Below, piece by piece: positions 15,701-61,676 of a stretch of DNA of 64,000 nucleotides. How positions within the stretch are numbered: the stretch's first letter is position 1; every line of letters begins with the position of its first letter. The translations under genes and the position numbers were made by a program. The notes under the pieces were generated by a model. It made no database searches and was not told the DNA's origin. It saw only the letters and a list, made by a program, of their open reading frames with translations. Source of the DNA: Undaria pinnatifida (lineage: Eukaryota > Sar > Phaeophyceae > Laminariales > Alariaceae); the NCBI GenBank assembly GCA_012845835.1, contig JABAKD010000014.1:3831710-3895709 (forward strand), written 5' to 3'.

Positions 15701-18700
15701 AGCTACATTTTTCTGATACTTTTACGAGTATATTTGTTTTAGGACTAGCGCAGGTAAGCGTTGGTCGGATTGCTCGAGCGAAAGCCTTCCAAGTCGCGTT
15801 TCGGGTGAGGCATTGAGCTCGTCATGTCAGTAGCTCAGAAACTTACCGCTGCACCCGGCCCCTGCTACGATAGAGGTATTATAGCACCTTTTTTTTTCGC
15901 TCAAATGTTTTCTGGATGACGGCGTTCCTTAACCCAAAATCGACGGGGTTTTCGTTTTCGTTTTCGTTTCTTTAAGATTATTTTCGTTGTAAACCTAAGA
16001 CACGGCGTTTTTTGTCATCGGGTACAGCACTTTCTACTGGACCGCTCAATATTCGATGAACTAGATAGTTCACCTTTTGTTTGCTTATGCAGCACTACCC
16101 ACCAGACCACTCAGTCACTGTGACTTAAGTAGCCTACTATATGGTACTATATAACGAACAGGAACCCTTGAGCAGAAGGTAAGCGTGCGGATTGGGAGCA
16201 TGCCGCGTGATTTTGGACGGGCGAGAAGCAACTCCACCTGCGAAGAACTGCGCCCAATACCTACGCTCACCTCCGGTCGCTCGTCAGTCAGCAGTTCCCC
16301 CACATCGCACACTAGCCGTATTTCCTCCACCGACGTAGTATCCTTACCACCCGGTCTCTTCTGGGGGGTCAACAAATTATCGCTGCCGCTTCCTTCTGTG
16401 CCCCCTATCCCTGGCTCTACCCGGTGTTTCCTTCGTGCGTGCTCTACCGGCGGTTCACCGGAACCGTTACCACCCCCAGGTGATAACCGTGTTTCAACCC
16501 CCGGTGATACCCCCACTTCACCCTCCGGAGATGTTAACACCTCATTACCGCCCTTGCTTTGTCGGTTGCGCCCTGTGCCAACCCCGTCCTGACCTCTCAA
16601 CTCCGTAAACAATGGTTCCCCCGGGATTGATGGCAGTAGGCCGGTAATCACTAGCTTCAGGGAACCTTCTCGTGCACGCCACGTGGCGGATCGCAGCCCG
16701 TGTTGCACGAGGTATTGCTTCGACGCCTGAAACCCGGAAGATCGCACCAGCGCTGACAGGACGACCATGGCGTGGTGCCTTGCCGCGACCTGGGCATGGA
16801 TCATATTAAGCGGTAGAATGATATCGGTTGGTTGGTATGGCCGTTTGCTTTTAAATAAGGTGGATCTTAAACCTGTTTGAGTACAAAGCGTTCTTTCGGT
16901 TGTAACCAGCACTTTGTCCCCGAAACGAAGACAACTATGGCGTCGTGCCTTGCTGCGACTGGAGCATGAACCAATCAAGTGGTGACACTGGATGTATTCA
17001 ATAAAGCGGATATTTAGCCTTTAATTAAGGTGGATCTTTAACCTGCTTGATTACAAAGCGTTCTTTCAATTGTAAACAGTACTTTGTCCCCGAAACGAAG
17101 ACAACCATGGCGCCGTACCTTGCTGCGACTGGGGCATGAACCCATCCAGTGGTGACACTGGCTGTTTGTATTTAATAAAGCGGATATTTAGCCTGTTTGA
17201 TTGCGAGCGTTGTGTTATATATTTCGAATAGTAGGGTGCCTCCGAAACGTAGACCACCATGGCGCGGTTGCCTTGCTGCGACTTGATCGTGGACCAATGA
17301 AGTGGTTGTTGGATAAGGCCGTTTACTTTAATGATGTGGATATTTAACCTGTTTGGTTGCAAACGCCAGTGTAAAAACCCGGCAGAGCGCACCGGTGCCG
17401 ATAGGACCACCATGACGTGATGCCTTGCTGCGACCTGAGCATGGATCAACCAAGTTGTTGGTGGATACGGCTCTGTATTTTAATGTAGATATTTCACCTG
17501 TAAAATTGCAAGCGTTAGCCGATATTCCAACAGTAGTTTGTCTCCGAAGCGTAGAGCTAAATAGCCTTGTTTGGTACTGCACGGTATAGAAGCATGTATC
17601 TAACTCTAATTCCAAGTATTTTATCCTCGAAACGGGAGTGCTGTCCTTGAGGGGATACTACATACCGTACCCGCGTTGAGGCGGGGGGGATGGGGGGGGG
17701 GACTGTTGGGTTGGAGGGGGGCGATTGTTGGTTTCCACGACTGAGGGAGACGATATGACAAGATAGACGGGTCATAAATGCTCACAGCGTGGACGGAATG
17801 ACACAATACACCTCGGTGTTTAGCCACTCGGTCCCATCTTGTCAGATCCCAGCTGGATGCAAGCAAGTCACAGAGCAAGTGACGATGAGTAGCGGGATGC
17901 TTTGCTACGGTATCTTTTTGTTTTCTAGCATTCCTCGCTTGAGGGGTTGTATGTTGTGGCACCCCCGCTCTCCCGTTGCGGCGTTATGATTTATAGCAGT
18001 TGTCTCCTTTACAGCTGGCAGGCGTTATCATCTGCCTCAAACAACGGCTTCGCCCCCCCTACTGTCCGAAGGTTTCCGGCTGACAGCGAGCAACTAATAC
18101 CAGAGATGTAACGTCCAAGCGACCCACATATGAGTGGACATTACAGAGCCAGAGGCACCCTTGCAGGGCAGCCGTCGGTCTCTAGGCCCAATATGTTCCC
18201 CAAAATACGACTACATCTACAGTTGTTCACCCAGGCACAGAATTTGGCAATAAAACTGAAAGTGCAACCCGACTTTAGTATAGCCTAGGTGTAAGGGAGA
18301 AATGTATTTTTCCCAAAAAAAAAAAAATACTTAGATTCCGACGATATTGGGTCAAAGAGTCGTGTAATAATTCAGTTTTTTTTGGCCGAAACATGCCAAC
18401 CTCTATCATATGCAGGCGTCGTGAGGTTGCAGCTAATTTTCCTGATACTACTACTTCCTCATTTGAGGGAGCTCCGCGAAAAAAACAGAAAGAATAAACG
18501 AACAAAATCCCACGACCCAAGGCCAAAAAAAAAAAGACGAATTTTTGATAGCAAAACACAGGTAGTACTCCAACGATATTTGCTCAGTCGGTATTTCGTT
18601 TGGCCAAAACGCGCTCGTACCCTTTCCCGTACCGTGCGTCTTATCTCTCGTTCTCCCCTTTTACCGCGGCGCGATGTCTTACCTTGTGGTCTCCAAGCCT

Positions 18701-21700
18701 TGAGACCAAGACGTGGAAGAGAAGAGCGAGGTGCGGCCTCAAGAGCTCCCCGACGCGAACCACCAGCACGTGGAGGATTTGGAGGGACAGCAAAGCCTGC
18801 ACATGGCGCGGTCGGGGTTTCCACATGCAATAAGGCGAGGTTGGAACTAGCTGTGAAAACCAAGTCACGGGAAACACAGCACCTTCTGATGCATGAATGC
18901 TACAGGTTGTGAGGAGTGCACCGCAATCTTCTGAGGCTCCTCCACGTCAAGGGCCCGATGTCTCACAAAATAAAAAATGGCTTTGAGATTTAAATCATGA
19001 GTGCAACCGATAAAACAATCGCATGACTCTAATGTAAGTTTTTGTGCGTTGATTGGGTTTCCTAGATGGCATGCGGTGTAGTCGGTTTCAGATGCGAGTC
19101 TTCAAACGTACCTGCCAGTATGGGCCTGGCACGTACGTAGGCTGACTTCCGATTTGATTCTTACATCTTTTTCGGCGGATGCATTAAAATGCTGCAGCTA
19201 TGATATATACGTATACCGCGGTTGATTTGCCCTTTTTTTTCTTCCAGGGGTATTTTTCCATTCCAGAGTGACTGGAGCCTGTTCTGTGACCACGGACTTG
19301 ATTATGGGAGTCAATGTGAGAACCGCAACAACTGTATGTAGGTACATAACTATTAAGGTTGTACAACCAAAGTGGTATTCGAGATATGCTGCCGTAGAGT
19401 TGCATCATTTTTTTTCTGGAGATCCTCACCTGAGGGGCTTTCCCCCCCCATCCCCTCCCCCCCCAAAAAAGTTGTAAGAAAACTGAAAGCGATCCGACGA
19501 AGAAGAAAAAGAATATGAAGAAAAAAAAAACACGGCTCAGGTACGCAAAAACAGTCCTTTCGTGCGAAAAACGAAAACGATAGCGACGACGATTTTTGGG
19601 TTAAGGAAGGAGCCTCGTCTTCATTCATTCATTTAGTTTTTTCTTTTTTTTACAAAACAAAGTGCCGCTTTCTCGTACAAGCACGCGTCATTCTAACGAT
19701 ATCGGGCAATTTCTCAGTGGACAAGGCTACGGTGGGGGGGGGGGGGGGGTCCCCTTTCGGGGCCTCTTTTCTTCAGTGGCTGGGGGTCATTCGCGCGAGC
19801 GACCCCGCTGTTTCTTTTCGCGGTCTTAAGGTTTTCGTGCTTTTTTAATTTCGCGGCGTGGATCCTCCCTTGGATTGGTAGACAACGCTGCGCCAAACAA
19901 ATTACCTAAAGTATTTTTGTCAGAGTGAGGTACAGAGCCAATTGTGCGAGTGGCTCAGGCGCGGTAGTGGAGATGGGGGCACCCCTCCCCCTACCGCAGC
20001 CCTAAAGCCCAGTCAGATACACACTTTTTTACCGCGAAAGCGCTACCCCTATCGTGCCAAGCGTTTCAGTGAACCGGTACGTGTTTCTCCGCATCGATAC
20101 GATACACTCGCACAACATGCCGTTACAACTCCTCACAATTTTGAAGTCGGCGTCTTCCGTCAGCCTCAGTGCCACCACGAGGAGTTCCTCAAGAAAAGGC
20201 GCTAAAGCTAAAGCCGCCACCCCGTCCATACCCGACACCAACCCCTTCGCTTCCTCCATCTCTCGGACCCGATCCTGTCGCCGGCTCCCGGCTGTCTCCG
20301 ACACCCCCCTCTGATGTACTGCCTCCTTAAACCTGGCAGACTTGTTGTCGTCTCGTCCCTTGCTGCCTCTGGCGTCGATGCCAATAAGAGTACGCAATAG
20401 TTCCTCCGGAAGTGACGCTGCGGAGGGTAAAATCTCCTCCTTGTTGTTGCTTGTGGCGGCGACAACAGTTCTTCTGGTTGTTCGTTGGGCTACAGTTACG
20501 GCCGGTGCTACCCGTTCGACCCGCCGGGAGGGGGGTGACGATGCAGATGACGGTGTTGGTGTCAGTGAAGATGTAGGCGTTGTTTTCGTTGGTGATGTGC
20601 TCGTCGGTGCTGCTGTTGCTGTTGTTATCGGCGTTGTTGTTCCTCGTAATCCTCCCGTGTCACCGAGCTTTGTTCGGGTGGCGATGGCGCAAGAACCTTC
20701 ACCGCGATCGCCTCCAATCGTCGCCATCACTTCGGTCGTCGCTGGGCCGGCAAGGATCGGCCGTGGGGGCGAATCGCTATTGCGAGATGGTGGGTTCTCG
20801 CTGGGGTTTTCGTTGGTTTCGCTTTGCTCTTCGCTGACATCGCCATCTGAGTTGCTCCTGGCGGTAACATCGTCCTTCAAGCGGTTCTTTGCAGGAGCAC
20901 GCCCGGGAGAGTAGGGTGTGCGAAATGGCTTGTCGCAGCAGTCACCACCGGTCACAAAGACGCCATGTTCTTCAACAACAGTATCGAACTGCGACCGATC
21001 GTCTGTCGTAACCCCGCACGTGGTCAACGACGGGGGCACTAACTGTGACGAGCCACGGATGTCGCCGCCGACACTGATCCCACTGCCGCCGTTGTCACGA
21101 GTGTCGTCGGGACTACTGCCACTGCGACGGTTATCTCGGCTTTCCTCTCTCTGCGGGGCGGGAATGGTTGTGGTAATGGTAGCAATGGGAGACGGCAGGG
21201 AGGGAGCCGGCAGCTCTGGCTCGCTGCATTCTTCTCCACCACGGATGGAAGAACCTCTGCGCGGAGAAGGAGGCATGCTACTTTTTTCCGAGCCCACTCC
21301 ATTGTGGCCCTTCTGTTGATCGCCATAGCCCGTAGACTTCGCCCTCCTACAAGCCTTTGCTTTACCGCCATAGCTCATAGGCTTTACTTTGCCCTCAAAG
21401 CCTGCTTGTCCCACGGCTACAACGTGCATGTCATCGTCAGCGTTGTTGTTGTTGTTATTGTCGTCGGCGAACGGAGGTGCTCCGTTGCTGCCGTCGTCAT
21501 GCGGCTCGTCTTCCTCTCCTTTCCTGGTGTCTCCATAGTAGATTTTTGCGCCATAGTGCTTCAGGAGCTGTCTGTAGGCGGGGCCTAGACGCCTTTCTCC
21601 CGCTTGAAACCTGCGTGCGCGGACCCCGACGACAGGCGGTCTACGTTAGCTTGTACGCCGTTAGAATTACACCCTCGTTTTTTAGGGAAAGCTGCTTGGA

Positions 21701-24700
21701 TTTAGTGTAGGACTTGTTTACCGTATGAATAGTGCCAAACGCTGTAGAGCAGCGAGCGTGTTTTTGTAGAATACGTTTTTAAAGTGAGAAAAGGGAACCT
21801 TGTTAACGTTTACCTGGAATAATATGGCGGAAGAATTGACAGCACCCGCAACTGTAGCTTTTCTGTCCGCTTTCCACATGAGGAAGTCTCACTCGAACAT
21901 GGGTTCCTAGGTTAACGTCTCGTAGACCAGCACGCAGTATGTGTCGCTGGGCTCCTCTTTGGAAGTGCTGTCGCCTATATTTACTAGGGAGGCGGTTTTT
22001 TATTGGGGGGGGGGGGGGATAAGGGACGCATGCTACGGTAGAGGCGCACCTGTTTTTTTTTCTCCCATTCAAGAAGCTCCATATACCTCACCCCAAAAGA
22101 GTGATCCTTGATATCAACGAACGTGGAAGCGGACGTAACACATCCCATGTCCTAGGTATACCAAAAATTATATCGCTACGCATAAAAATAAATATAAAAT
22201 GAAACATTCGGGGCGATTGTGGGTGAAGGAAACCCCGTCATTCAGACACTTCCCCCCCCCCCCGCCCCCCCCCCCAAACGCTACCTCTATCGCAGGGTCC
22301 GTCGGTCGGGGTGTGCGAAATTGAATGAATTTGAACATGCTATTCCAAAGCCATTCGTTATTTTTTTAAGGCAGGAGGAGAGGCCAGAATAATCGAGCTG
22401 TTGTCGAGGGCCACCTGCTGTGTACGATGCGACTTTACGAGCCATCCCACGGCAGGACTTGTTGCACTTTTCGGGGGGGGGGGCGAACGTTTTTTTTTGC
22501 TGACCGGTTGAGCTCCTCGAGCGAGGGAATGAGGAAAATGCCGGTACATTTTGCGAGTATATTGGGTTTTAGGACTACTGCTATACTATTAAGTAGTGGC
22601 GCATAGAAGTGTTGGTCGGGTTGTTGCGTGAACGCAATGTCTTCGAAGGCGTGTTTCGGGTGAGATATCGAGCTGCTCCTCATGTTAGGAGCTCAGAAAA
22701 TTCTTAGAATCTTCTGCTGCACCCCTATCTAGCGTGGGATGACTCCCAACCCTGACGCTACCCCTAACCCTGACCCTAACCCTACCTCTAACCCCAACCA
22801 CAACCGAAATCCCAACCCTAACGCCAACCCCATCAACCAGTGTTTTCGGGGCTAGCCCTCTTCATCGCGTACACAGCAGTGTGCGTCAACGCGGCAACAA
22901 TAGTGAAAAAAGCCTACTGCAGTGTGGTCTCCCCGTAAACTCACGCCTCAGGTCCAGCTCGGTACATCCGTCCCAACGCATTCACCGCGGCGGCCACTAC
23001 CCCGTCGTCCACGTCACGCACCCTGCCGACGAGCCCTTTCATGAGGGATCCGTACTCTCGCTCGCCCAGCGCCATTCCATCAGCCTTTACGATTACATTG
23101 CAGAGTGGGTTGGGTTGGGTTGGGTTGGGTTGGGTTGGGTTGGGTTGGGTTGGGTTGGGTTGGGTTGGGTTGGGTTGGGTTGGGTTGGTTTGAAAGACTT
23201 GTAAAAGCTTGTCTATCCGTAGCACAAAGTGGGTTGGGTTGGCTGGGTTCGATTAGTCAGCGCTATAGTCCACCGGCATACGGTTCCATCGCACAGTGGG
23301 TGGCGTTCGCTAGAAAGATTATAATAGTCAGCAGCCGAACGGGTTGGGTCGAGTTGGAGGATTGGCCAGTAGTAGTTCGTTGGATTGGCTAAGGGAGCTA
23401 GCCAAAGCTTGTCCCTTTTGCGGTCGAATGAAAGTCGATGGCGGCGCGACGGGGAACTTCGTATAATTATGAGGCGGAACGTAGTAGCGCAGATGGGGCT
23501 GTGTTGGCCAGGAGGATTGCCTAAAAAATATGTCTGTCCGTAGCGCAGAGTGGCCGTCAACATCGTGAAACCTAGTTCAGCACACAGCGTGGGTTGGGTT
23601 GGCGACGGAGGTTTGTCACTAAAGGTGGGTTGGCTTGGCTTGAAGGCATAGTCAAAACTTGTCTATCCGTAACTGAAGTAAGCCTTGCAGTTACTTCGCA
23701 GAGTGGGTTGGGTTGGGTTGGGTTGGAATAGTCGGCGCTGGTCTACCGGCCTTATGGTTACTTCGAAGAGGCGAGTTGAGATGGCTACGATGATTAGCCA
23801 AGCTTGCCTATCCGTACATCCCCCTCAAACCCTGTAAAAGTGTTGATATTACCACACTGTTCATGTTTTTTTTTTACTGTATCTTGGTCGCAAAGAGGTA
23901 AATGCCGATTCAGTGCTGCGATCCCCCCACATCAGAGACCCACCAATAGCTGGGAAGAGGCGCGCGTGCTCCAGAGTCTGACGGTTTCGTCGTCATGCTC
24001 CATCCCATGGTGGACCAGCTGGTCAATCAGAATGCCTTCCACATCCGGCAACTGCTCTCGAAGACGAAGAAAATGGAAGACAATATAATGTAGACCAGAG
24101 GGTGGGCTAAGAATGCAAAAAAAATGACGGAAAACGCCTTGACGTGGATGAAATTATGCTAAAGAAAGAAAATTCTCCTCAAGATAATCTATTGATGAGA
24201 TGTTCATTACAAAGTCAAGGCCTGCGTCCAGCATAACTGTCGCTACCTAGGAAGCAGTTACACCGTATCGTCATCTATGCATACAGCTCAGTGGTTAAGG
24301 CGAATATCGTAACAAACCTCGCGGCCGCCGTAATTACCTAGCTTGAAACGCTGAATATTTATCGACCAATCAATTCATCGAACTCACAGCTGGGGCATCA
24401 CACCTATAATGATACTATTAATAATCAGCTGATATTAATCACCTGCCCGGCACCACATTCGACCAGGACCTCCCTGGCGGGTCCCCGCAGGCATTCTTTC
24501 GAGAAACAGTCTACGACGGACGGCACAATAGACGCGATGCAAGCCCTGGCGGCGTGCGAGCGATGACCAGGTCCCTTAAACTGCACTTGTGTGGGTTTTA
24601 TGGCCGTGCCGAGGTTCGGCTGCCTCTCCCCGGCAGCGTGCGTGCGAGACAGCCAACGTGCGGATTCTTTGAGAACCAACAAGCACTCCAAAGCCACCTG

Positions 24701-27700
24701 CAAGAACGTGCGAGAAAAGCATGGGGGAGACGACAATCACGTGGCGAAAATGTACCTTTTTTCTCGGCGAAGTGTACCGTTTGGCGGTACTTCTACGGAA
24801 GGTGGTAGTTAATAAGGTACCGACATAAATCAGGCAGGCGTGCATGCGAAACAGCCAAGATGTGGGACCTTTTTAAAAACCGACAAACACTCTAAACCTG
24901 CCTGCAAAAGCGACAAAAGGTGGAGACGCGATGAAAGGCCACAGTCGTGCGAAAATATGCCGTTTAGGCACGAAAAATCTACCTGTTGCCGCGAAAATGC
25001 ACCTGTGGGCGGTACTACGCGAGAATGGCAGCTGGGCTGTTTGTGCAGACGCGATGATGGGTGGTAAAAACGCAAAAAGATACCTTTTTTTCGGCGAAAA
25101 AGTACATTTTTTCCCACTATAATTTACCTTTTTATTGATACTGCAAGAGAATTGCAGTTGGGTTGTGAGTGTATACGCGATGAAAGGCGATTACTACGGG
25201 AAAGTTCGCCGGTTGACGGTCCTATTTCATTCGGTGGTAGGTAGAAAGGCATCGTTAGCAAGGTATCGGCGTAAATCAGGCGGTTTTGCAAATTAGATTA
25301 TGTTGGGTATCTCAAGACTCAAAGGAATGTATAAGGCAATGACATCACACCACCTTGCAGGTACCATAGTACATAAAAAATGGAAGTTGGGTTGTTTGTG
25401 TATTACTTCACGATTCTCAGTACGCAGTGCATCGTTCAATCAAACAGCCAGCACTCGACGTTGGTCGTCCTCTTTACGTGTCGAGCGCTCCTGCGACAAG
25501 CCACTCCCGTGACCTCCTTTTGGACGATCTGCGATCGAAATACATTATATAGACATCAGCCTTTCCTATGTATTCCTACCGACACGACCGAACGCACACA
25601 CTGCTGTTAGAGATACTCCACCACCACTGAGCTAGCTATCAGTGCTGACAGTTTGCCCGGTGGTTCTGGTGTTTCCCACCAATGTAACTCGTAGCTCAAT
25701 CGTTCTGGTGTATCTCTAACGAAGGCAGATTTGAATACAGGCGCACCTCTTCGGAACCTGGCTGATGGCCCAAGTTATGCTCGAGCAAAGCACGGACTCC
25801 GCTGAAGACCGCAGCAGGGTCGGGTTGCGACGACTCCCGCCTGCCACCGATGCCTCCTCCCCCCCCCCTTCCCACCCTGCCTCTAGCGTCATCACAGGTG
25901 ACAAGGCTGCGGATACGGCGTAGGGACGCCATGTTTGCCGCGATCGTGGCTGACGCGGTTCCGTGCGCTGGGAACGAGCGATTAACTTCGCTCGAAAACA
26001 CGCGTTGGTAACGAATTGCCCGATTCATTCGGACGCGCGGCCGGGGGAGGGGGGGGGGGGGGGTTGAATACAACTAATTTCGAACGCTGCTATAAAATAT
26101 TTCACGTCGTGGATGATTTATAGCGTCTGTGGGGTCATGACGTCAAAATAATACGAGTTGTGTGTGATCATTGAGTTAACCCTGGTGGGGTACATGCTTA
26201 TGTGCGATACAACAAAGGAGAGGTGCTGGACTATGATTGCGGGAGCTTGTAGCCGGAGGCAGCTCCAGAGAAGTTCATGCTACGCGCGTGTCGTGGAACT
26301 CTTTCACACATGTGACGGATAAGGATATGATCTAGATCATCTACAGTGGATCCGATAGCTGCAGTTATGGGATGCTGTGCAGGGTCTGAATATATAGAGA
26401 GTACATATCCAACTCAGTAAACATGTACTAGATTACACAGATCGTACAGATCGTACGGCTCCCGCCCGGCAACATGAGCATGAGCTAAGACCATAAACAT
26501 CTTCTCCGAAATATTTAAAAAATCCAAGAGGGGATCGAACGGTGATCTGTCCGACGTGTGAACTCTTTGCGATGGAGTCCGGCATGAAAAGCGGTACCAG
26601 GTATTCCGTAACCTAGCTGTCCGCGTTTTGCTATTTTACGCGTAATTGATGCTGTAAAATAGTCATTTGTATTCGTCGTTTTTCAGGGCTTTGAACGTGT
26701 CGGATCGCATCTCACGGGACGAGTCGGATCAGGGTGACCGGACCCGACCCGCGGGATTTTGATAGAAGCTCCTGATGCCACCCGACCCGACCCGACCCGA
26801 CCCGACCCGACCCGTAAGAGTTCAAACACTTCCTGACCCGACCCGATTTGATCCGCGAGGTTGTGAATACCTTCTGACCCGACCCGCAGGCAGGGTCATG
26901 ACCCGTTAAAAGTCCCGAATTGCTCCCTATTAAGTCCCCAAAACAGCATCCTGCAATTTACGGCCTTGCGTGTCATCGTGCAGATCGCCAACTTCACGCG
27001 TTGGCATCACACCCGAACCATGTGCATATTCGCGATTCTACGAGGAAGGCGTTTCGACCAAGCCTGTGGTGGGGGCAAGGGTGTACTCATTTCATGCACA
27101 GCCGTAGTCGTATGACGATTGACCCTCACATCCCTGCTTTGTCGGGACGGAGCACGCCGGGTTTAAGCAGATCAGGCACACATCGCGTGCACTACGCGAA
27201 GCCGCGAAGCACCGTGAGGTGTTCGGCGAGTCGCATGAAGGGTGAGCTGGACCCTGTTAAGAACCACTTGTGAGGCAGACTTCGGTACCTCGTGCGTACT
27301 TTCCTGCATATGGATGACAGCTTCCCTTGTTTGTTTTTTCCTGATGTAGCCACGGTCACAGACAGCACGGGGGAAAACTACGCAACTGCCTCATGGGTAC
27401 CTCATCATATACACACTTACGTGACATCACCCCCCTTGCGCGGAGTTAAGGTACTTCACCCCGCACCATAATGACCTAACTTCACCACCATCTCGTTCAC
27501 CACCAAAGCATACAAGAACGAGAAAACAAAAGACTAACTTCCTGTAACACTTCTTGTCTAACTCACGCAGTGAGAGGTGTGTTTTACAGCATCGATGCCA
27601 AACCGACGCCAACCCCAGGGGGGAGGTTACGTTTAAGCAGGGGTTTTCATTGGTCACATCGCTTCTCGTGGGTTGGACCAGATCCGGGTGACCCGACCCG

Positions 27701-30700
27701 ATTCGTGATCGTTGGAAAAAGTCCTGACCCGACCCTACCAGACCCGTGAGAAGCCAAACAACACCTGACCCGACCCGATTCGACACGCGAGTTTTGAACT
27801 CTCATGACCCGACCCGCGGCCCGGGTCAAGACTCGTGAAAATACCTGCGTTTAAGGTCTCCATTTTTCAGCGGCTCATGGCTACTCGTGCGAGAAAAGCT
27901 ACATCTCTCGTTGCTTTGTGCCTTCCGGTTTTTACGATATGCACAGAGTGATGTGATTTGTTTGATACGCTGCGCCGTCAAAATATGTTTTTTATGTCCG
28001 TTTTTTTCGAACGAGGTACTTAGCCATTCGCGCAAGCGGTCTAAGCTCGTTAGTGAAACGGGGGGCATAGCTCTAACACATATTACTTAATGAGGACACA
28101 CGCTCACCAATACGCGCAATCGGAGTATGACACACAGCTTGCAAAGATGAGTTTCGACGAAATCTTCGATCTCACAGCTGGAGTGTAGTTTTATTCTCTC
28201 AGAGGAACCTTAGGTTCCGTGAGAGCTTTCTTGCCCGATACTCAGACCGTGAGTGAGTGTCGCCTCTCACACGGAAGCTCCAAACCACGCACTTTTTAAA
28301 AGCCGAATCCATTTGGCGTTAAAATCCACCCCATCGACCCCGGACCTCGCCGTGAGTGCGCGGGCATGGGTGCAGACAAGATGAATCGGCGCTCTCCCGC
28401 CGCGCGGGCGCGCGCTCGTGGAGGCACGAGCAAAAGCATCTGGGTGTGGTAGAGCCGGTGTGTTTATTTTTGCGAGATAACTATACGTGTCTAATAAAAC
28501 AAAGACCGCTTTGACTTCAATATAAAGACAGATCCAGGTTTTTATTTCTGGATAGCAGATTTGAGCAGATTGAGAGGCTGCCAGCGGGAGGCCGAGCAGC
28601 CGAGTGTCGGAACGAGCGCCACAGGGGCCGGTTTGCAGCTCTCCGCGCGGGGGACGGGGCTCGCAGGGACATAGAGCGGGGAAAGCTTGGAAGATGGCTC
28701 CGAGCGAGGCGAGGGTGATCGCGAGGGCAGCATGCATGAGTCTCGATCAGAACGACAACAGACAAAACTTTCGGGCAGAGTGGTACCATGGGTAGGGTTG
28801 AAGGATATATATATAACATCCTTATTAGCGATAGCCAAACTCTCCTTCAACGTAAAGTAGGCTGATATGCATTCTGCTTCTTTTTCTGTTTTTTATGCCA
28901 CTTTCTTTAAGGTGGGGTAGTCTAAGACAAGCCAATTATGCCCTTCTTTACGTTACTTTTCGATGAAAATTCCCCCACGATGCTCGCTACATATGCGCCA
29001 TTTTCTGTCTTTTTTATTTTTTAGCTTTTAACCTTTTTAAAACCGCACTTCCGACATGGGGACCAAAAACACTCGGGAGTCAGAGGATTGTTTTGAGAGT
29101 TGGAAACGGACTTGGACATCTTGTCTTTGTACTTTAAATAAGCATCATAAACTTACAAAATGTGCCAAGAGCTGGCGGCTGGCAACGATTTCGCCACGTT
29201 TTAAAGTGTGGCTGATGTCTGTTTCACGTTGATGTACGGAACGAAAATCGCATTCTAGCACAAAACCAAGGTGGTATAGTGAGACAACTGCTCGTTTTGG
29301 CTTGCTATGCCTTTTTTATGTTGAAAATCAACCGATAATTGCTCGCTACAGGCCATGATTTTCGCTATTCCCCCAAAGGACAATTATGCCAAAAATAATG
29401 CGAGCATGATGGATATAAGCCTAACATAAAGATCCCGGTACTATATTTCCGGATAGCAGACTTGAGCAGATTAAGAGGGGCTGCCAGCGGGAGGCCGAGC
29501 AGCCGAGTGTCGGAACGAGCGCCACAGGGCACGGCTTGCAGCTCTCCGCCCGGGGAGCGGGCTCGCAGGGACATAGAGCGGGGAAAGCTTGGAAGATGGC
29601 GCCGAGCGAGGCGAGGGTGATCGCGAGGGCAGCATGCATGAGTCTCGATCAGAACGACAACAGACAAAACTTTCGTGCAGAGTGGTACCATGGGTAGGGT
29701 TGAAGGATATATGACATCCTCATTAACGATAGCGAAATTCGGGTATAAACGGTTTTTTGTGGCCAAAGTCGGGTACATTTTTCGTTTCAGTGTTCAGCAC
29801 AGCAGAAGCAGAAGAAGGTGTAGAGGCGGTAGTAGCTGTAGCACGGCACACGAGACTAGAGCCGGGTCAGTGTCGCTGTGCGTATGTCTCCTCGATCAAC
29901 CTCCAAAAAAAAGGTACTCGTACAGCAGCATAGATAGCTAGATAGTTCTCCCGTTTTTTCGGTTATAACTCTTGAAGGGACGATCTGCATCTCCGATCAC
30001 CAAAACATACAACCAACATCGGAACCCATACAAGTACTGTATTCGTATATTACGTAGCCCAGCAACGCCTGTGAAATCACACGTTGCCGCACTTGTCTCG
30101 ACGAACTCTCCACGGCTTACAGCGAAACCAGCACGAGAAGAGTTGCCTGTTGTTTGCGCGTGCACAGAAACCGTCGGGACTGGCCTTGGTGCCGTGTACG
30201 TTGAGTGCGGTGGACAAACGTGGAGGTCCCGTGCATTGAGGTCCCTTTTTTGCGGGACATACCTCGCCGCCTTTCCTACGACGAACTATTATCCTCTACA
30301 CATGAAGAGGATACGGCTTTTTTCTCTCATATTTTCTCCCGCCTCCACTCCTCCACTTCCACTACGCCGGTTTCCCGGAAGGACAGGTGGGAAGAGAGGG
30401 CGGGGGGGGGGGGGGGGGACTCAGTGAGGGAAGAGGGGGGGGGGGGGGGGGGGCTCTGAGAAAACAGCACGCCGCCTGATGCGAGGGCGCCTTTCCATTT
30501 TTTATAATAATACGATATAAAATGCTGCCATAGACGCGAGCTTCGATAGATAGAGATAGCATTTTTTGGCTACAACATTTTCTGGCTGACGAGGGCTTCT
30601 CATCCCCTTCAGAGCCCCCAAACCCCTTCCTATACTAACTACACGTGATTTTTTTCCCAAAACGGGTTTCCAGTTGTAAAGACGTTGACCCTCTTCAACC

Positions 30701-33788: not shown

Positions 33789-33789
33789 G

Positions 33790-36680: not shown

Positions 36681-36689
36681 ATTACCGTT

Positions 36690-36940: not shown

Positions 36941-37084
36941 TTTACAAAAAAAAATCTTCGTTGTTTTGTTCGTAAAAAAATGGCTCGCTACTCAACTAAC
37001 TTCAGCAGCAGCACAGAAGCAGTAGCAGCAACCGCCCGGACTAAGTTAACCTCACTCAGCAGCAGCAGTACACATACATATGGA

Positions 37085-37645: not shown

Positions 37646-38411
37646 ACTCAGGTACATGCACGGTGCTGCTATGGCCGAAATCGGGTACAGTTCTACTTCA
37701 GCGTTCGCCACGCGCCCGGGACGCCATCTGATTGGCTGGGTGGGTCGGTTCTAGGTCTGTTTCTATTATCGTACACACATATCATACACGCATACATTTC
37801 TGACCACATGCATCAAGTAGTAGCGGGTTCAGGCGGGAACACTATCGATCTAGCTCTACATTCTACGGGGATAAACGAGGAGTGCCGCCACCCAATTAAT
37901 TATTGTACAACATCCAAGAGCGACTGGCATTGGCTGGTCAACCTTATCCATTACCACCAAGAAAATGCAAACACATACATGTGACGTATTATATAGCAAC
38001 GAGCGCTATTCCACGTACAGTACACAGCATCCCCTGGCCGCTAATAATTCGTTTGCGCGTACATCATCAGTACAACGTGCACGCACCGCTATCACACTCT
38101 TCCCGCTGAACACTACTACACTTTCTTTGGAGCAATGCACTACTACTAGCTCATGCCACGCAGAGTGATAACGTCCGCCATCACCTATCCCCGCCCCCGC
38201 GGGGGAGAAGGGGCACGCGCGAGGTAACTGTGAAAAGAAAAACAATATTAAATAGTAACAGTATACCAGGTGCAAGGTTCTCCTTCGGGACGCGGGTATC
38301 GTGAAATCCCGGGGGCGTCGCAAGGCGAAAAGGGAGGCCTCGGTAACACACGTATGCGTATGTTTCCACCTATAATGGTGTTACGCGTACTCACATAGAT
38401 AAACCCCACTG

Positions 38412-38829
38412 CTGCTCGAAAGAGAAAGAGCTGTCGGCGTTAGTTCAGGCAGATCATTATCTGTCCGAAATGTGAAGTTTTTATACCTCTCTCGTAGCAT
38501 GATCTAAACCTGGTACGTGTTTTATTGTTTGTGTTCCCCAGTTCACTGATCTTTACGATCTAGGTCAAGCAGATCATGACCTGTCACATGTGTTGACGTT
38601 TTCATACTCATCTCGCGATTGTTCCCTCTCCCCGGGGTTCCCGTGTGGACGTGATGGTGGAGGTCATCAAATAGCGCGGCTCGAAAGAAAGCAGGCAGTC
38701 GGCACTATTGCTAAGACCGCACGATCTGTAGATCAGGCAGATAGTGATCTGTCCGATGCGTGGACTTTTGGACTTTTTCGTACTTCTCTAGCTCTTGTTA
38801 CCTGTATCGCCGGGTTTCCCATTATGCAG
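38412..38829 (+). repeat. Degenerate tandem copies of the first LSm11-like exon border
   Basis: At 38412-38436 a remnant of exon text (GCTCGAAAGAGAAAGAGCTG) occurs. At 38557-38705 a fuller copy runs AGGTCAAGCAGATCATGACC, GTGGACGTGATGGTGGAGGT, CGGCTCGAAAGAAAG. The working version follows at 38725-38910. The unit is about 150-160 bases. Confidence 0.8.
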
Positions 38830-38832
38830 GTG

Positions 38833-39981
38833 ATGGCGGAGATCGTCGCTAAGTACGGCTCAAAAGAAAAAGAGCTGTCGGCTCGGCTGCTTAAAAAGTA
38901 CGGACGACCGCTAGCGCAGTCCGTATCCGCGATAGAACTGCGGAAAACCTTGGCCCAATTCGGCATGGAGGATCAAGATTGCTCTGGGGGTGGGTCTTCG
39001 GCGGCGGCAGCGGCACCCGGCCCCGAGAGTGACGCAAGTCGGGATACGTTCAGAGATCCTGAAACACCACGACCCGTTGCGGGGTCGTTGGATTTCCGGT
39101 CCAAGAATTTCGATGCGCTCCAGGTGCGAAGAAAGATATTTTAGGGAGGGGGCGGGAGCGGGTCTCGGCGTCTGTCGCTTGTGTGTTGTTGAATCTGATG
39201 TGTAAATTTTCTTTGATTTTGGCTGTGGGAGTTGAAGAGAACGAGCGACGCTGAACGTGTTTGGTGCGAAATACGGGGTGATTGGGGTGTCGGTGAAGCT
39301 TTCTCCCTTTGGTGATGGTAATGAGGGTATGCCGCTGTCCTCCAAGAGCAAGAGGCGAAGTGTAAATAAACCGTAACGAGATGTTCTACCTCTGTCGCGC
39401 TGGCCAGTTGCGTTGGAATATACACGCTCCGGGGACTCCCTTCACCGAAGGTATCCCCCCGTCCGCCCCCGCCCCCCCCCTCCCCCCTCCCGCCCTCCCG
39501 CCCCCCCCGCCCCATGCAGGCGTTACGGCACAGGACGCTGCGCCCCCCCTTCCCGAGAGAGCCAGCTCTAGACAATCTGGCCAAGTTTCGCCGACTCATG
39601 CCCAGGACTACGCGTCCGCCTGCGCCCGCGCCTGTACCCACGCCTTCATCTGCTCCTGATTCTGCCGCTACTGCTACGGCTGTGCCTGGAGCGATGTTAG
39701 CACCCCCGGCAGAAAACGTTTTTTCACCAGGGGCTGGCGGTACACCAGCGAATTTGGCGACACCGGGAGTTGTTACCTCTGGAGTTTTGCCGAGTGGAGG
39801 CCTCGACGCCACTGCCACTGTAACCGCGGGTATCGGCGGCGGTAGCAGTGGTGGTATCGTTAGCGGTAGTGATGGCACTGCTGGCGGTGCCGGAGCCGAC
39901 GCTAATACTGCGAGTGGACCGGGTCTCGGCGGCGTAGGCAATGACAACATCAGCGACAACAACGACAACAACAACGACCGC

Positions 39982-40038
<57 letters not shown>

Positions 40039-43000
40039 TTCAGTGAAGGAGGGCGCGTGGGGAAGGCTACGGACGGCGACGATAATACCCAGAGCGGCGG
40101 TGCTGTTGGAACTCTTCGCGACAATTTTCCGGACATACTGAAGCCAGGGGAAGGGGGTTCTGTGGTGGGACACTATGGGCCCTTGAGCTCCGCGGTCGAG
40201 ATGAAGATGGCAGACAAAGCGATGGCGTTCGTGCGACGGGGCGTTGAGTTGGCCAGCAAGCCGAAGGCGATGCCCGGTAAGTATTGCACGCTTGAGATAG
40301 ATCACGATCTAGACCTCGAATAGATCCTATACCTGTCGTTATGATATGTTGTGCAGGTAGATCCTACATCTTCCGTTGTAAGATTTTGTGCACCTGATCT
40401 GTGTAGTACGGATACAATGTCGGAAACATGAGCTAGGTCGTGCAGATCGTACGGAGCCCTCCGGCAATATGATCTATCTAGACTACGCCTATCTTATACT
40501 GGTATGGACCAGGGATCTATCTGCCCTGAAAGACACAGATCGTCAAGTGGAACCTGATCTGTTCGATGTGTGGAGTATTGTATCCTCGCTGATATTTTTT
40601 CTCTGTTTTATTCTCTGCGGACTTGCTGTTTTGTCTCGAAGATGTTTTTTGTCGCTTTTTTTTTTCTGTTTGCACGACGAGGGGAGGAAGGTTGGTTGCG
40701 ATCTGATGATCGATACGGCTGGGTGGGAGGGTGGTAAGATGACATTGGTAGGTCGTGGCGCGGAGGGTCGAAACAGCCACCTGGTTTGCGGTGTTCAGAA
40801 AGTAGCCACCCAGTCAACCGCCCCTACAGAAGTCTACGGCGTTCGTTCATTCTGAAAATGCAGCGCCAACTAAATAATGTTCCTCACTGTATTTTTTTAC
40901 CCTGTCACCACTAAAAAGATGATTCCACTCTGATTCCAAGTAGATTGCTCCCGAAAGCGTGGGCGCAGTTCTAAGCGGTCTAAAGGAAAACGGGGCATGC
41001 ATTTCTATGCCAAACTGTGGAGGCACGCGAAAGCTAAGTCCTGGATTCCTTCCCCCCCGCCCCCCCGTTAGTAAAAAGCCAACAGTTTCTATGTAATATA
41101 TGGACAAAGCGTAATGAGCGCCCAAATGTTGGAGGTTTCTCTATCAGGAGTAGGATTGGTGCTCCGCCTCGAAAAGGATACGTCGTCAATGGTCACTTGA
41201 CTAAGGCAAGCAACAAATGAGTACGCCCCCCCCCCCTAGACACAACACAGGGCATCTTCTTCTGTCTAAGTTTGGAGGAACACGAAAACTAAGTCCTGTT
41301 AATTTGACTCCTACCCCCCTACACACATTCGACGATATTCCAGATCGGTCAGCGGGTTCAAAGGGTAATCCGGTGCAGCGAATAATGCGCGAGTATGCCG
41401 GTACCGGACCGTACAGACTGCTCTACCGCCTGCACGAAGAAAAGAGAAGGGCGAGCGTCATGATCCGGCGGGTAAACAGGTGAAATATTTGAGAATTTTT
41501 GTTGCAACACCGTTTTCTGTTTCGGTCCAAAACAAAAGCGATGTGTCGGATGTTTAAGTTTTGCACCCGAACGATTTTTTTTTCGCGTGATGTTGCTCAT
41601 TGTGCTCGCCCCTTTTTGTGTTGTTGATAGTGGGATGCCTACTGTGAAGTGGAACGGCCAGTTATACAACAGCAAAATACCGAGAAAGGCGGCGCCTCGG
41701 TCGTGAAGAAACTTTGCTTCTTCAATTGGCGGTCGTTGGTTTCGGGTGCTCCCTTCGTGTCTGGCGTTTTGTTTCGATTTAGTAGGAGTTACGTGGGGAT
41801 AGATGACCCGCAGATGCCCCCCCCCCCTCCGTCCCCCATCTCCCCCTTCCTGTCTTGCTTGTCTCACCCCCTTTTGCGCTGTGACGCGTACTTCTTTCGC
41901 GTTGGGCCCACCCACCTACCCATCGTCTCACCCACCCACCCACCCACCCACCCACCCACCTACCCACTCACCCATCTACACACCCACCCTACCCTACCCA
42001 CCCACCCACCCAACCACCCAACTTACCTACATATTTACTCACCCATCCACTCATCCACCCACCCGCTAACCCACCCGCTCACTCACCTACCCACCCCATC
42101 CACCTACCTACCCATCCACCCACCTACACCACCCACCTACCCACCCGCCCACTCACCCCATTCACCTACGCACAAACCTACCTATCTACCCACCTACGAA
42201 CCTACCGACCACACCTACCCACCCATCCACCCACCAACTCACCCCACCCTCCTACTCACTCACCCACCCGCCCCACCACGTGCCGGTACGTTCAATAGCG
42301 TTCGCGGTACCTGCACAGGCTTGATCCGAGCTTTCGACAGGCACATGAACCTGCTCCTAGCAGACGTTAAGGAAGAGTACACCGTTTTGGTTCCCTGCCG
42401 CGAGCCGAAGCCGCGGTCTCAGGAGGAGGAGGGGCACCTTGCGAGGAATCGTTCCAGAAAAACGTCCCATGAAACGGCCGGAACACCTTACGCTAGGGAC
42501 AATGTTGGGGCAACCGCCACCGCTTCAAGCTCAGGCGTTTTGGAGGGGGGGGGAGATGTCGGAGCTGCTGCTCCGAGTTCAGGTCTAGTGGGGACGGGGG
42601 CAGCTGGCGACGGCTTTGGTGTCCGAGCACGAACAGATGGTAGGCCTGATAGCTCGTGGTCGAGGGGGGGGAAGGGGGGGGGCGGGGGAAGGGAAGCGGG
42701 GACGGGGGGGGAAGGGTCTGACATGAGCCCGTCTAGCGACGAAGAAGGCGTCGTAGAGGAGGCAGAGGAGGGGGAAATAGTTGATGAGGCGGGAAGTAAT
42801 GTTGGGGAAAAAGAGGCGGGCCACGAAAAGACTAATGTTCGAAAAAATGATGTGCGAGTTGAGGGAGGGGGGGATAAGGGGCCAGACCATCCTGGGGGGA
42901 ACATGCTTTCGGCTGACGAGAGGACCACCGGGAGCGACGTTGCTGTAAAACGTGGCGATGGTTGCAGTGGAACCGTCACTAACGCGGGCAAAAAAAGCAC

Positions 43001-43373
43001 AACAGCTCCCGATTTAGGCAAGCCCTCGCAAAAACGACCGGAAAGAAACTCCACAGGGGGTGGTGACGGCACGGTTGGCGGTGCCGCTGCATATACCGGC
43101 AAGCATATATCCGGTAGTGACATGGATAGCAGCGGAACACCCGATTTTAGTGTTCTGGTAGGAGCACCTCAAACAGGGGAAGGCGCGCATGAAAAGGGGG
43201 AAGCGGAGGAGTTTGCAGAAGAGAAAAGGCCGGGGAGACGAAAACCTCGGACTAGGGGGCCTTGGCGCGGGGAGTTCAAGTCGGTGAAGCAGCAGAGGTT
43301 CTTGAAGCAGGTGCTCGTTCGAGGGGACAACGTGGTGATGGTGTGGGAAGCGCCCGGACGCAAGCCACGATAG
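38833..43373 (+). CDS. LSm11-like Sm-fold protein with long linkers
   Basis: Four exons join in phase: 38833 (or 38830)-39123, 39520-40276, 41344-41479 and 42299-43373, giving 752 residues from the ATG at 38833. The layout is that of LSm11, the U7 snRNP protein of histone pre-mRNA 3' processing. There is an N-terminal DFRSKNFDALQ...LDNLAKFRRLMP block, a long disordered region with poly-Asn, an Sm1 motif (SVRGTCTGLIRAFDRHMNLL, from residue 395), a linker of about 300 residues rich in Gly, Glu and Asp, and a C-terminal Sm2 motif (QVLVRGDNVVMVWEA). A long insert between Sm1 and Sm2 is the hallmark of LSm11. The first exon starts in mid-motif (VAKYGSKEKEL...LLKKYG) and has a good acceptor TTATGCAG, so an upstream exon is likely and the true start may lie further left. 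The stop lies in a family A transposon end. The U7 role is inferred from layout alone. Confidence 0.8.
39985..40035 (+). repeat. (CAA)n in coding sequence: poly-Asn
   Basis: Perfect AAC codons give about 14 asparagines in exon 2 of the LSm11-like gene. The repeat is in frame and probably length-variable. Confidence 0.85.
40300..40580. repeat. Family J copy 2 in LSm11-like intron 2
   Basis: It contains GTGCAGATCGTACGGAGCCC, TCCGGCAATATGATC, ACCTGATCTGTTCGATGTGT. It is related to 26300-26600. Confidence 0.55.
40995..41325. repeat. Diverged duplicate in LSm11-like intron 2
   Basis: CAAACTGTGGAGGCACGCGA, AAGCTAAGTCCTGGATTCC (about 41010-41060) recurs as TAAGTTTGGAGGAACACGA, AAACTAAGTCCTGTTAATT (about 41265-41305). 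The second copy ends 20 bases before the exon 3 acceptor. Confidence 0.7.
41905..42275 (+). repeat. (CACC)n-rich tract filling the end of LSm11-like intron 3
   Basis: About 370 bases of CCCACCCACC variants end 23 bases before the acceptor at 42298. As the coding strand it is an extreme pyrimidine-rich tract. The Pro/Thr/His frame across it is an artefact. Confidence 0.9.
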
Positions 43374-44620: not shown

Positions 44621-44621
44621 G

Positions 44622-44957
44622 ACGCCTTCTACGATGGGGGTAGCACGTTGAGGCAAACATATTTTCTGAATGACGGGGCTCCTTAACGCCTTTACAACTG
44701 GAACCCCTTTTGGGAGACAAATGTACTTGAAGTTAGTATAGAGAGGGATTTGGGCCCCCTAAAAGGTCGTCGGATCGTCGTTCTTGTTGACCAATATGAA
44801 AATATTTTTCGTGTACTTCAGGCCATGGTTTTGGTCAATCGAGTTACACGTTCAGTTTACTAAAAATCAGTTTTTGGGTGAGGTATCACTAGAGCTCCTC
44901 CAGTCAAGAGCCTTGCAGGGGGAAAAAAAAACGGCGCCCCTCTACCGTAATTGTTCG
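44622..44957. mobile_element. Family A copy A14
   Basis: The left end ACGCCTTCTACGATGGGGGT leads to CTGAATGACGGGGCTCCTTA, CTTCAGGCCATGGTTTTGG, GGTGAGGTATCACTAGAGCT and the right end GCGCCCCTCTACCGTAATTG. A 60-base insert separates the first two blocks. Confidence 0.7.
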
Positions 44958-45365
44958 TGATATCGATATCGACCACACCAGGCAGCCCCGCGCCGCTGGG
45001 GTAGAGGATGTGTCCGGACTGCAATGAGAAAGGAGCTGTGCGACACGCTTGCAGCATGGCGATGCTCGTACTGCTGCATGCTTTTCCTGGACGCTCGATA
45101 ATATCGAAACCACCATTTTGTTTGTCCGTGTACATGGGTGCCAATATTACGTCGATGGCAAATATTTTGTTTCGTATATAAAAAACAATGTTTTATTATC
45201 AGGTATATGTTTATAAATACAATTTCTGAAACATAATCCATCACCACAGATGGTATTCTCCTTTCATAAACAACAAAAAGGCAGCACAGCACAGTTAACC
45301 ATAGCAAAAACCGCGCTGGTCTCAACCTCAAACGACTGCCGAATACTTCGGCCAGCTCAGCTTAA

Positions 45366-46775
45366 CTATTCCACCGGCACGGCTACCGGAACCTCAGCTT
45401 GAGCGACCGCGCCCTTGCCCCCGCCCACTCCCCTCGCCTCCGCCTCCTCCGCCTCCTCCGCTGCAGTGTCTAAAATATAAATCAGAGCTTGCTCCAACCT
45501 CGTTGGGTGCCCGTGCCACTCTACCACCCCAAATGCGTCCCCTGTCCCTCCCTTGACGACGTAGCAGTGCGGGATGGTATTGGTTCCATGGGCACCCTGG
45601 TAGCCCTCTGTCAGCGCCCCCTCTTGGTCGGCCAATAGGGAAACCGACCGAAGGGGGCGCTGGTACGTCTCGACGAAGTATCGGAGGTCCTCTTCCCGCT
45701 CCTGGGTCACGCCCGCAAACGTCACCCCTGTTTTCGTCGTATAACCGGCCGAACGACGACAACGACAAATAAATACGAAGACAGAACGAAGAATCACGTT
45801 AACGACAAAGCCAGAGATTGAAACGTTGTAATATTGATAAATATGTACAGCCAAAGAATCCGACGTTTGCGCAGTGACCATACGAGAAGGAATATAACAC
45901 ATAAAAATACCATGAAGACAAAGCGTAAAGTTTCAAGGATCAAACGAAAGACACAACGTAAAACATGAGACAAAGGCAAGAGACACGGGTAGAGAACAAA
46001 ACAACAAAAAAGGACAACCGAAACGACGGCGACAAAAAAACGGCGAACTTAATGACAACGACGAAAACGCAGACATCGACAACAGACAACGAAACAAATA
46101 ACGATATTTGCGACAACAACAGCACAACCACGATCATCACCAACAATAGCAGCAACAACCAAGCAAGGTCAGCGACAAAGCCAAAAACAGCTGTAGCATC
46201 AGCCACAGCAACATCAACCACCGCAAAAACAGCAACAGCGACGACAACATCCGTCACACCATCTCCAACAGCAACAACAACCGCCACAGCAACCAGCAAT
46301 AGCACAACCACAACAACAACCGCGCCACCACCACCACCAAAAGCAACAACAAAAGACGAGTGAAAGCCTGCGCCGCGTAAAAGAACAAAACTAATCTAAA
46401 AAATCCAACGGCCAAGAGGCTCATAGAAAAAACATGAACTACTCCGCTCTTCTTCCCCCCTCCCCCCCCCCCTCCCCCCGTCCCCCCTCCTCGCGCTGTA
46501 ACCAGCCTACCTTCGTCCTGATACCTCGCCACTACAGAGAGAATAGACGGCAAGCATCGCTCGCTGTTGGCGCACCACGTCGCGAAAAAGAAGACCACAC
46601 ACAGCGACCCCTCAGCCGGAGCCTTGAGCGGCTCCCCCGCGACGAGGGCTAGCCCGGGAGCATTCGCGGGGGGGGCTGTTAACTTTCGGTCCTTGCCGCT
46701 ATCACCGGCCCCGGACGCGTTCGTGGCGGCGGTGGTGGTGGTCGCGGTATTCCCTTCAAGAAGATCTTCGTTCAT
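45366..46775 (-). CDS. Thioredoxin-fold (TlpA/nucleoredoxin-like) protein, 2 exons
   Basis: Exon 1 is 46775-46511 and exon 2 is 45727-45366. The 783-base intron has a GTAGGC donor and an AACAG acceptor, and the splice falls inside a Gly codon, giving 208 residues. Residues 55-165 look like a thioredoxin fold: a strand CVVFFFATWC (59-68), a helix RCLPSILSVVARYQDEG, a strand VTFAGVT, a TIP segment (140-ish) that would supply the cis-proline, and the final strand FGVVEWHG. The usual CxxC is replaced by C68-ANSER-C74, so a classical disulfide oxidoreductase mechanism is doubtful. The Ala/Thr-rich N-terminus and the Glu/Ala- then Gly/Val-rich tail look disordered. No signal peptide is evident. It converges on the LSm11-like gene and is divergent from fumarase. 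The intron is a CAA/ACC-rich low-complexity tract. A substrate cannot be named. Confidence 0.85.
45728..46510 (-). other. Intron of the thioredoxin-like gene
   Basis: The intron has a GTAGGC donor and a GAAAACAG acceptor. It is filled on the plus strand with CAA/ACA/ACC triplet variants from 45960 to 46350 and poly-C runs near 46450; no further exon is needed. Confidence 0.75.
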
Positions 46776-49246
46776 TTTGTCGTCGCTCTCGAAGAACCGC
46801 GCGTTTCGAAGGTAGACGTATATCTGGGAGTTTGTTCCCGGATGTAAGGCGTGGGAAGAGGGGGGTCGTTAGAGGCAAGCAGGTGGATGACAGGCAGGGG
46901 GTACAACATTAACCTTGTAGACTACATATCTAGAGTTTATTTGTTCGAGGGGAGGATTACCAACATGAGCGCGCCATCGGAGAGACCGGATTTCCCCGCC
47001 CGCTGTAAGAGAGGTCGTTTTGGTATCGGAAGCAAACATCCGTACGGCGGAAACCCCATTGATCGTGGACGCATGACATCGTGAGACATATTTTAAGGCC
47101 CTATCACCATTACGTTTCCTTCCGCCTTTCGCTCTGGACTTGTGATGCGGCTGTACTCTGTAGTGCTACTCCCCGTGACGAAGGAGCTGCGATTGTCGGC
47201 CAAACAATCTCAGCTCCATGTGTCCCTGGGGATATCACACGTTATCGGGAGTTTGGATACACTGCTCCGTTGCTTCTTGCTGCTGTACGCGTAGTCGTAG
47301 CTATAAGCAGCGCATCTAGACTACACGTACAGCAGTAGTGCCAGCCAGCGCGTGGTGACTTGAATGGGCACATCAGCAGTATTTCGCCAGGTAAGGTGTC
47401 TCTCGCCGATAGGCAGGAGCTAGTCCGTTGGCTGGATCCTCAACCCGGGTGCAAAAACGAAGCCTGAATCCATTGGATATCCAAACTAAAGACAGTTTAT
47501 TAATAGTCGCAGTTAGGTCCAGGATTCACGGGTTCAGGTTCAGACATTCAGGGGGCGTCTAAACTCCCCCCAAAAGGCATTGGAACGCTTGGAACTTGGA
47601 ACCTGGAACGACAACTACTTTTGCTCGCTGTTGATTGGTTATCAAATCGAATAGATTCCTAGCGTTCGCACCCTGACGGTAATTTTTGGAAGAGGAAGAG
47701 AAGGGGAAAATCCTAAAGTAGTTTTATTGTGCAGCAAAACCGAACGGCCCACCTGGAACGAGATTTACAGCAACTGATTGGTGCTGGAAGTGGTTCTTCA
47801 TAGGCTTCAGGCCCACGAGGGTATGGGTGCACATGTGATGACTTAGGACCTACGGGGTGGAGCGCATGTGGACGCCGTAGGTCTTGCCCGCGGCAGGAGC
47901 CACGCGATACCGCCATGGCCTGACCAGGAGGCCCATGAGGCACATGACTGGGTTGCGAACGAGGCTCTGGCGATATATATTCTGGCAAAAGTGTGGCACC
48001 GATTACCGTACAAGTTTCGGTAGCCTTCGTCGAGCCACGAGGGCAATATCACAACTTTTAGACCTGTCCCGACGGTGCCATTTGGATGGCTAGCACCGTC
48101 GTCTGTGAGGCTTGCCTTGGGATCTTTTTGTGTGTGAAGTTGTTCTCTGTGTCAGGAGCAATCGCTGCCCACGTAACGATACCTCTGCCTTACGAGGAAT
48201 CGAGCTGCACGGTCCCGCCGCAAAAGTCAGTTGAGCTATTATTTGTTCGGGTCGCTCGCCCAGCTTCGCATCGGACACAAATAGGTAGGAATGAAACGAA
48301 CGAATGCGAGCAGCCTCGTTCCATTCCAACCGTTCCAACCAAGGTCGAAATAAGTTAAGACACACCCTCAGGCATGCAGACGCACCAAGTTGAACAAGCT
48401 TCCGCGGGTTGCTGAATACCATTTAATAGAAGGCATTTGCTGAACATCAAGTACTGAATACCAGCGGGAACTGTTGAATAACAGCAGGTAATTGCTGAAT
48501 ACTTGAAGGGCTGCAAACATGATTCCCCGCCATTTCCAAGTAGTTCGTTTCCCAGGAGGTGGGTGCGGTTTCTGTTCTCTTCGGAATCTGAATCTGCCGC
48601 GCTGTGCTGTACAAGTACGAGTACAGCGGACAACAGAGTACCAGGTACCTGGTATCGATGTATCCAGGATGTATCGACAATGCCATACGTACCTCAAGCG
48701 AGAGCAACAGGATGCCGTACGCACTTGCTCTACTCTTAGTCTCTCGGGTGCTTCATATATCTGCCAGCCACGACCATGTTCGCGACGCGGGTCGTAGGCA
48801 GGTACTCAGTTGCTTCTCCTCGTCCATGACCTCTTCGCCCCCCCCAGCGGGTTCGCTTATTATGTCAACTCACCATCGCCATAGCAGGAAAGCCGACCTC
48901 GTGCATTCCCCAGCCCGGCACGTTGGTGTTGAAGAAGAACGTCATGCCAAACCCTACACCACCCACGAGAAAGCTCAAGGCCATTGCATAGGGGTCGAAT
49001 ATACGCACCAACGTCATTGCGTGCGCTTGCTTTCCCCAAAGACAGCAAGGTCCTGCCTATACCTCGACTGCTGCGCTGGCTTCGAAATTGGAAACCTGGG
49101 TTTTACAGCTGAATCGTACGGCGTTTTGTATCCGGGGCAATACAACCTGCGCTGGCTCCCACACGCCACACTGGGCGCACCCGCACACATCTTCACCCTC
49201 TGTCCTAACCAATTTTGAGTAGCAACAAGGCGATACCACCCGACGA
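46776..49246. other. Intergenic region between divergent thioredoxin-like and fumarase genes
   Basis: It should hold both promoters. No TATA box is convincing. A near-tandem 20-30 base repetition (CAGCGGGAACTGTTGAATAA and neighbours) lies at 48420-48500. Short frames only. Confidence 0.45.

Positions 49247-61676
<12,430 letters not shown>

Follow-up and report, generated by a model that had tools for sequence, protein, structure and literature searches.

The window analyzed here is a stretch of 64,000 nucleotides from the brown alga Undaria pinnatifida (contig JABAKD010000014.1; positions are counted from the first base of the stretch). Its plus strand carries a gene for fumarase (class II fumarate hydratase), whose 13 exons join into an open frame encoding a protein of 530 amino acids. 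In protein searches, the closest homologue was the fumarase of Ectocarpus siliculosus, with 88% identity over 87% of the query, and the fumarase of Ascophyllum nodosum was 81% identical to the window protein. The homologues support the fumarase exons with the exception of the N-terminal leader, and the joined-exon frame required no new intron. Note that the donor of exon 6 appears to be GC, not GT (AAG/GCGAGA, 54253-54259); the joined protein fits the homologues. The gene is laid out as follows:

49247..61676, plus strand: fumarase gene, 13 exons (open joined frame and homologues)
49247-49580, 51609-51706, 52505-52605, 53147-53273, 53491-53646, 54155-54253, 55480-55629, plus strand: exons 1-7
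57318-57396, 57715-57782, 58206-58283, 58628-58716, 59316-59400, 61548-61676, plus strand: exons 8-13

Comparison of the window with itself also revealed an inverted pair of ~190 bp (85% identical) in fumarase introns 7 and 12 (56541-56726 and 59435-59623), possibly a dispersed element.

The earlier note on this DNA had proposed that at least five exons in three unrelated genes are accompanied by decayed copies of their own splice-site regions. For fumarase, with 12 introns and thus 24 junctions, each junction segment (60 bases on each side, low-complexity sequence masked) was aligned to its own intron and to the eleven others. Own-intron scores of 117, 59 and 62 were obtained for the exon 3 donor, the exon 12 acceptor and the exon 13 acceptor, respectively, while the remaining 21 junctions scored at most 22. 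The top cross-intron control score for all fumarase junctions was 26, and the three matches are therefore not due to chance. Decayed copies thus accompany three of the 24 junctions within the respective intron, in a gene that retains an intact protein. The copies are arranged as follows:

52563..52645, plus strand: working copy across the exon 3 donor (52605/52606), self-score 117 by alignment
52748..52829, plus strand: decayed exon 3 donor copy, 89% identical, 185 bp downstream, beyond a 102-bp unrelated spacer
58829..58947, plus strand: exon 12 acceptor, decayed copy 1, AG kept, first base 58869, followed by a stop codon
59060..59197, plus strand: exon 12 acceptor, decayed copy 2, AG kept, first base 59118
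59254..59400, plus strand: working copy and exon 12 (acceptor 59315/59316), fitting the Ectocarpus protein
61076..61176, plus strand: exon 13 acceptor, decayed copy 1, first base 61122, in-frame stop after 10 codons
61233..61343, plus strand: exon 13 acceptor, decayed copy 2, first base 61283, out of frame with exon 13 (distance 265)
61498..61676, plus strand: working copy and exon 13 with the stop codon (acceptor 61547/61548), by joined frame and alignment

The AG is preserved in all four spare acceptors, those of exon 13 included. The spacer at the exon 3 donor (52646-52747, 102 bp) contains a short palindromic, TATCGA-rich stretch.

Two further arrays lie outside the fumarase gene:

16730..17555, minus strand: array of five units of ~170 bp each (window self-comparison and alignment)
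38395..38720, plus strand: upstream copies of a probable exon edge at 38831, the later one clear (38555-38703), the earlier one weak
38721..39124, plus strand: working copy and probable exon, near an LSm-domain gene at ~42.3 kb

The minus-strand array is real; its four upstream units share 58-71% identity with the last unit (first base 16789), which the earlier note took as the working copy. The segment starting at 16789 lies inside a long open frame. However, its exon status is unsupported, and the array may not be at an exon edge. A protein search with the joined frame returned the window's own upstream piece alone, a protein that continues beyond the proposed donor, and no homologue for the supposed exon; a Pfam search of the frame found no domain. 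For the frame lying upstream in this supposed gene, a homologue does exist (42% over 62%). Codon scores were -14.7 bits for the supposed exon and -12.9 bits for this upstream frame; the measure decides little here because the frame with a homologue also scores negatively.

At 38831, the clear upstream copy was found as a BLAST pair (38555-38703 and 38721-38882), and the weaker, earlier copy was seen in multiple alignment only (60% over 108 columns). The exon candidate has one open frame with a codon score of +3.2 bits, which places it above the 95th but below the 99th percentile of random open windows; 38831 is a probable exon edge. An LSm domain (Pfam PF01423) was detected in the open reading frame 41631-43370 at 36.9 bits (cut-off 23.4). 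The hand-joined frame from 38831 reached just 20.1 bits for LSm, under the Pfam cut-off, and a PDB search with this frame yielded nothing useful. The exon presumably belongs to the nearby LSm-domain gene.

Direct copies were thus present at all five places, four of acceptor type and one of donor type, but not all five are confirmed exon edges. As to the three genes, fumarase is confirmed and the array near the LSm-domain gene is probable, while the minus-strand exon lacks support. The working copy is indeed the last in four of the five cases, as had been reported. This arrangement reflects geometry and not preference, since at an acceptor only the downstream copy can remain joined to the body of the exon, and at a donor only the upstream copy.

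We assembled an independent sample from the Undaria pinnatifida assembly (511 Mb, 68 contigs). A Pfam kinase search of the genome, in which 131 of 844 first-look candidates were scored, gave at least 132 matches. Thirty loci from this search were combined with 40 further regions, for which kinase exons were hand-picked from the search rows and gene clusters avoided, resulting in 70 loci and 243,676 bases. In these 70 loci (244 kb), 101 local pairs were direct and only 4 inverted (139:5 when the window was added), and at least one direct pair occurred in 35 of the 70. From sample and window together, 74 independent arrays were obtained; the window contributed 20, of which 15 lay away from the five places noted earlier. 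The median array had an offset of 193 bp, an aligned length of ~98 bp and an identity of 79%, with the middle half spanning 70-154 bp for aligned copies and 138-364 bp for offsets. The copies abut within 10 bp or overlap in 17 of the 74 arrays. The median gap is 100 bp, and more than 10 bp separate the aligned copies in 57 of 74, several less diverged arrays included; many arrays are therefore not plain head-to-tail repeats, or part of the unit has been lost. Two arrays, the minus-strand one with its 170-bp units and the one at 38.6-38.9 kb, are nearly head to tail.

We then compared splice junctions with the surrounding sequence. Kinase splice sites were set by a simple in-house score, not from transcripts, and sites under the score cut-offs were dropped; the donor rule required GT and ignored GC donors. 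This left 47 acceptors and 46 donors from 61 kinase exons in 57 loci. The other 13 of the 70 loci (L009-L014, L017, L018, L020-L024), intron-poor or poorly bounded, were omitted from the main count, a decision made after earlier results on the loci were in view. In the 57 loci, copies covered 7 of 93 junctions (3 of 47 acceptors and 4 of 46 donors), 8.2% of flank points located 150 bp or more from the exon, and 3.4% of exon interior. When junction positions were rotated within loci, 6.7 covered junctions were expected against the 7 observed (P = 0.52). With all 70 loci counted, the values were 3 of 56 acceptors, 4 of 49 donors and 7.0% of flank; the omitted 13 loci alone gave 0 of 9, 0 of 3 and 0.4%. 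The 95% interval for 7 of 93 is 3.1-14.9%, and with these small numbers a junction enrichment of up to ~two-fold is still compatible with the data. Adding 38 exons predicted de novo resulted in 9 of 169 junctions covered, with 9.7 expected. This second figure includes false exons, which pull it toward background: the predictor overlapped 7 of 11 internal fumarase exons (6 exactly), and in the sample loci it made 28 antisense against 95 sense calls. On these counts, the position of the copies is independent of the splice sites.

Matching of junction segments gave the same picture. At a threshold of 36, and with half-masked segments dropped, 36 acceptors and 36 donors were compared with their own surroundings and with other loci. 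Of the acceptor segments, 3 of 36 had a match in the sequence upstream of them, a far higher rate than with other loci (2 of 1258); of the donor segments, 2 of 36 had one in the sequence downstream, against 1 of 1254 with other loci. No exon-side match was found at this threshold for any of the 36 acceptors or 36 donors. However, random flank points matched their own neighbourhood at 8-10% (139 of 1426 upstream and 112 of 1474 downstream), and junctions did no better. The rate is therefore far above that of shuffled pairs and equal to that of random flanks, which confirms the local copies and, within the power of the sample, refutes a process specific to splice sites. The earlier note had itself named an equal frequency in random intron windows as an outcome that would refute its proposal. 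The 4:1 excess of acceptors in the window is likewise not general, since donors were covered as often as acceptors in the sample.

What stands of the proposed pattern is that local direct duplication adds intron sequence, has occurred repeatedly in genes unrelated to each other and in some cases crosses a splice site (7 sample junctions). What the background rate at junctions does not support is the splice-site-spanning segment as the unit of growth. A process targeted to splice sites, in which introns would be extended chiefly at their ends by duplication of exon-edge segments, would account for five arrays at supposed exon edges within one window and for the fumarase fraction of 12.5%. Yet this fraction does not stand out from a background of 8% (P = 0.30), both sample counts lie at expectation, and random flank points match as often as junctions. 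We consider such targeting very improbable. As copies are about as frequent at exon edges as elsewhere in introns, no special splice-site process is needed.

The explanation we hold to be very probable is a background of local direct duplication that sometimes runs across splice sites, with the spare copies kept where they are spliced out. Short segments would be duplicated locally and in direct orientation at many places in the brown algal genome, each event presumably having been a tandem duplication. Most copies would land in introns or intergenic DNA and decay, and a few would span an exon edge. At an acceptor, the downstream copy would stay with the exon and the upstream copy would turn into intron; at a donor, the roles would be reversed. 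Splicing would then discard the spare copy, leaving a longer intron and an unchanged protein, and junction-spanning duplications would be tolerated for this reason. Selection would act as a filter, with exon-internal copies lost and intronic and junction-spanning copies persisting. The spare copy was on the intron side in 9 of 9 sample cases and 5 of 5 window cases. The spare splice sites are probably ignored by splicing. By analogy, break repair is the most likely source, either through fill-in of staggered ends followed by end joining or through synthesis-dependent copying.

Alternatively, the copies might persist because they serve as alternative splice sites or as decoys, perhaps tuning expression via nonsense-mediated decay. 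The preserved AG in both spare acceptors of exon 12 and both of exon 13 would fit this idea, as would the spare acceptor at 59118, which precedes the exon 12 acceptor by exactly 198 nt with the frame open throughout and, if used, would add 66 residues in frame to fumarase. However, the exon parts of three of the four spare acceptors run into a stop or are out of frame, and in protein alignments the extra segment is absent from the Ectocarpus and Ascophyllum proteins. Moreover, a divergence of ~20% would be expected to spare most AG pairs by chance. Retention as decoys therefore appears improbable. Still less credible, and in our view extremely improbable, is that the copies derive from transposable elements or satellites arriving repeatedly beside exons. 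About a third of the array copies match other sample loci (23 of 74), one array (L050) is satellite-like with a period of 109, and a few spacers are weakly alike. But random segments match other loci about equally (83 of 300), the fumarase junction copies carry the gene's own exon sequence, the orientation is almost wholly direct, and the spacers form no single family. The lack of such a family also argues against the spacers as one inserted element. Introner-like or transposable elements were considered as well; the dispersal of one sequence that would mark them was not seen at 23 of 74 against 83 of 300, in a sample of ~0.06% of the genome. Separately, a repeat of ~220 bp at 30000-30224 in the window has at least 39 similar places in the genome, with 82-92% identity.

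Only 4 of the 74 arrays (5 of 86 with a looser cut) contained copies at least 90% identical. In a simulation with planted head-to-tail copies of 80-200 bp, whose divergence was set at eight evenly spaced levels between 0 and 35%, 77-100% of the duplications were recovered, and ~34% of the finds were expected at 90% identity or more, a share that depends on the assumptions of the simulation and would shift with others. Young copies are thus scarce where about a third would be expected, which suggests that most intron growth is past and makes it doubtful that the introns are growing now, as the earlier note had worded it. The shortage could result from a drop in the rate at which copies arise, from a burst in the past, from rapid divergence early on, or from nearly identical copies having been collapsed during assembly. 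A transition/transversion ratio of 1.12 speaks against RIP-like (C-to-T, repeat-directed) mutation as the cause of decay. We tentatively raise the possibility of a past wave of short direct duplications in the kelp lineage, which may have left recognizable copies over ~8% of the flanking sequence of genes with introns and made many introns longer, also across splice sites, before fading. The fading is suggested by copies at least 90% identical being about six times rarer than an even age spread predicts.

These results point to a harmless route to intron lengthening and show that copies across splice sites can be accounted for without a dedicated process. Should young copies prove scarce throughout the genome, brown algae would offer a datable episode of intron lengthening. 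Mean intron length is given as 1,057 bp for Saccharina japonica and 703 bp for Ectocarpus (PMC4421812), and exon shuffling in brown algal ROCO genes is treated in PMC11378527. Judged by titles and the beginnings of abstracts, none of the matches listed from the open-licence literature describes such duplications in brown algae.

Related events are described in other organisms. In the potato RdRp gene, a duplication across an intron-exon boundary made a new intron and inserted exon sequence, as confirmed by RNA reads (PMC4974935). There, as in Undaria, the 3' end of an intron and the 5' end of an exon were duplicated, with the extra copy beside the original; in contrast to the potato case, the Undaria spares look decayed within a longer intron. 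For vertebrates, PMC2671141 and works cited there report repair-mediated local duplications, short 'doublets', some of which contain intron splice sites, with decreasing intensity through primate evolution. The doublets resemble the Undaria copies in being short, closely linked, partly spaced and sometimes inclusive of splice sites. They differ in that the Undaria copies are almost all direct and shortly spaced, whereas in the vertebrate study pairs no more than 50 bp apart were discarded, and of the two duplicated exons reported there one is inverted. Small tandem duplications in mouse cells with induced breaks are ascribed in PMC8355091 to fill-in of staggered breaks and end joining. Like the Undaria copies, these are direct and short, with no tie to any gene part, and they are adjacent, as part of the Undaria copies are; they were seen at the induced breaks themselves, whereas Undaria shows old products only.
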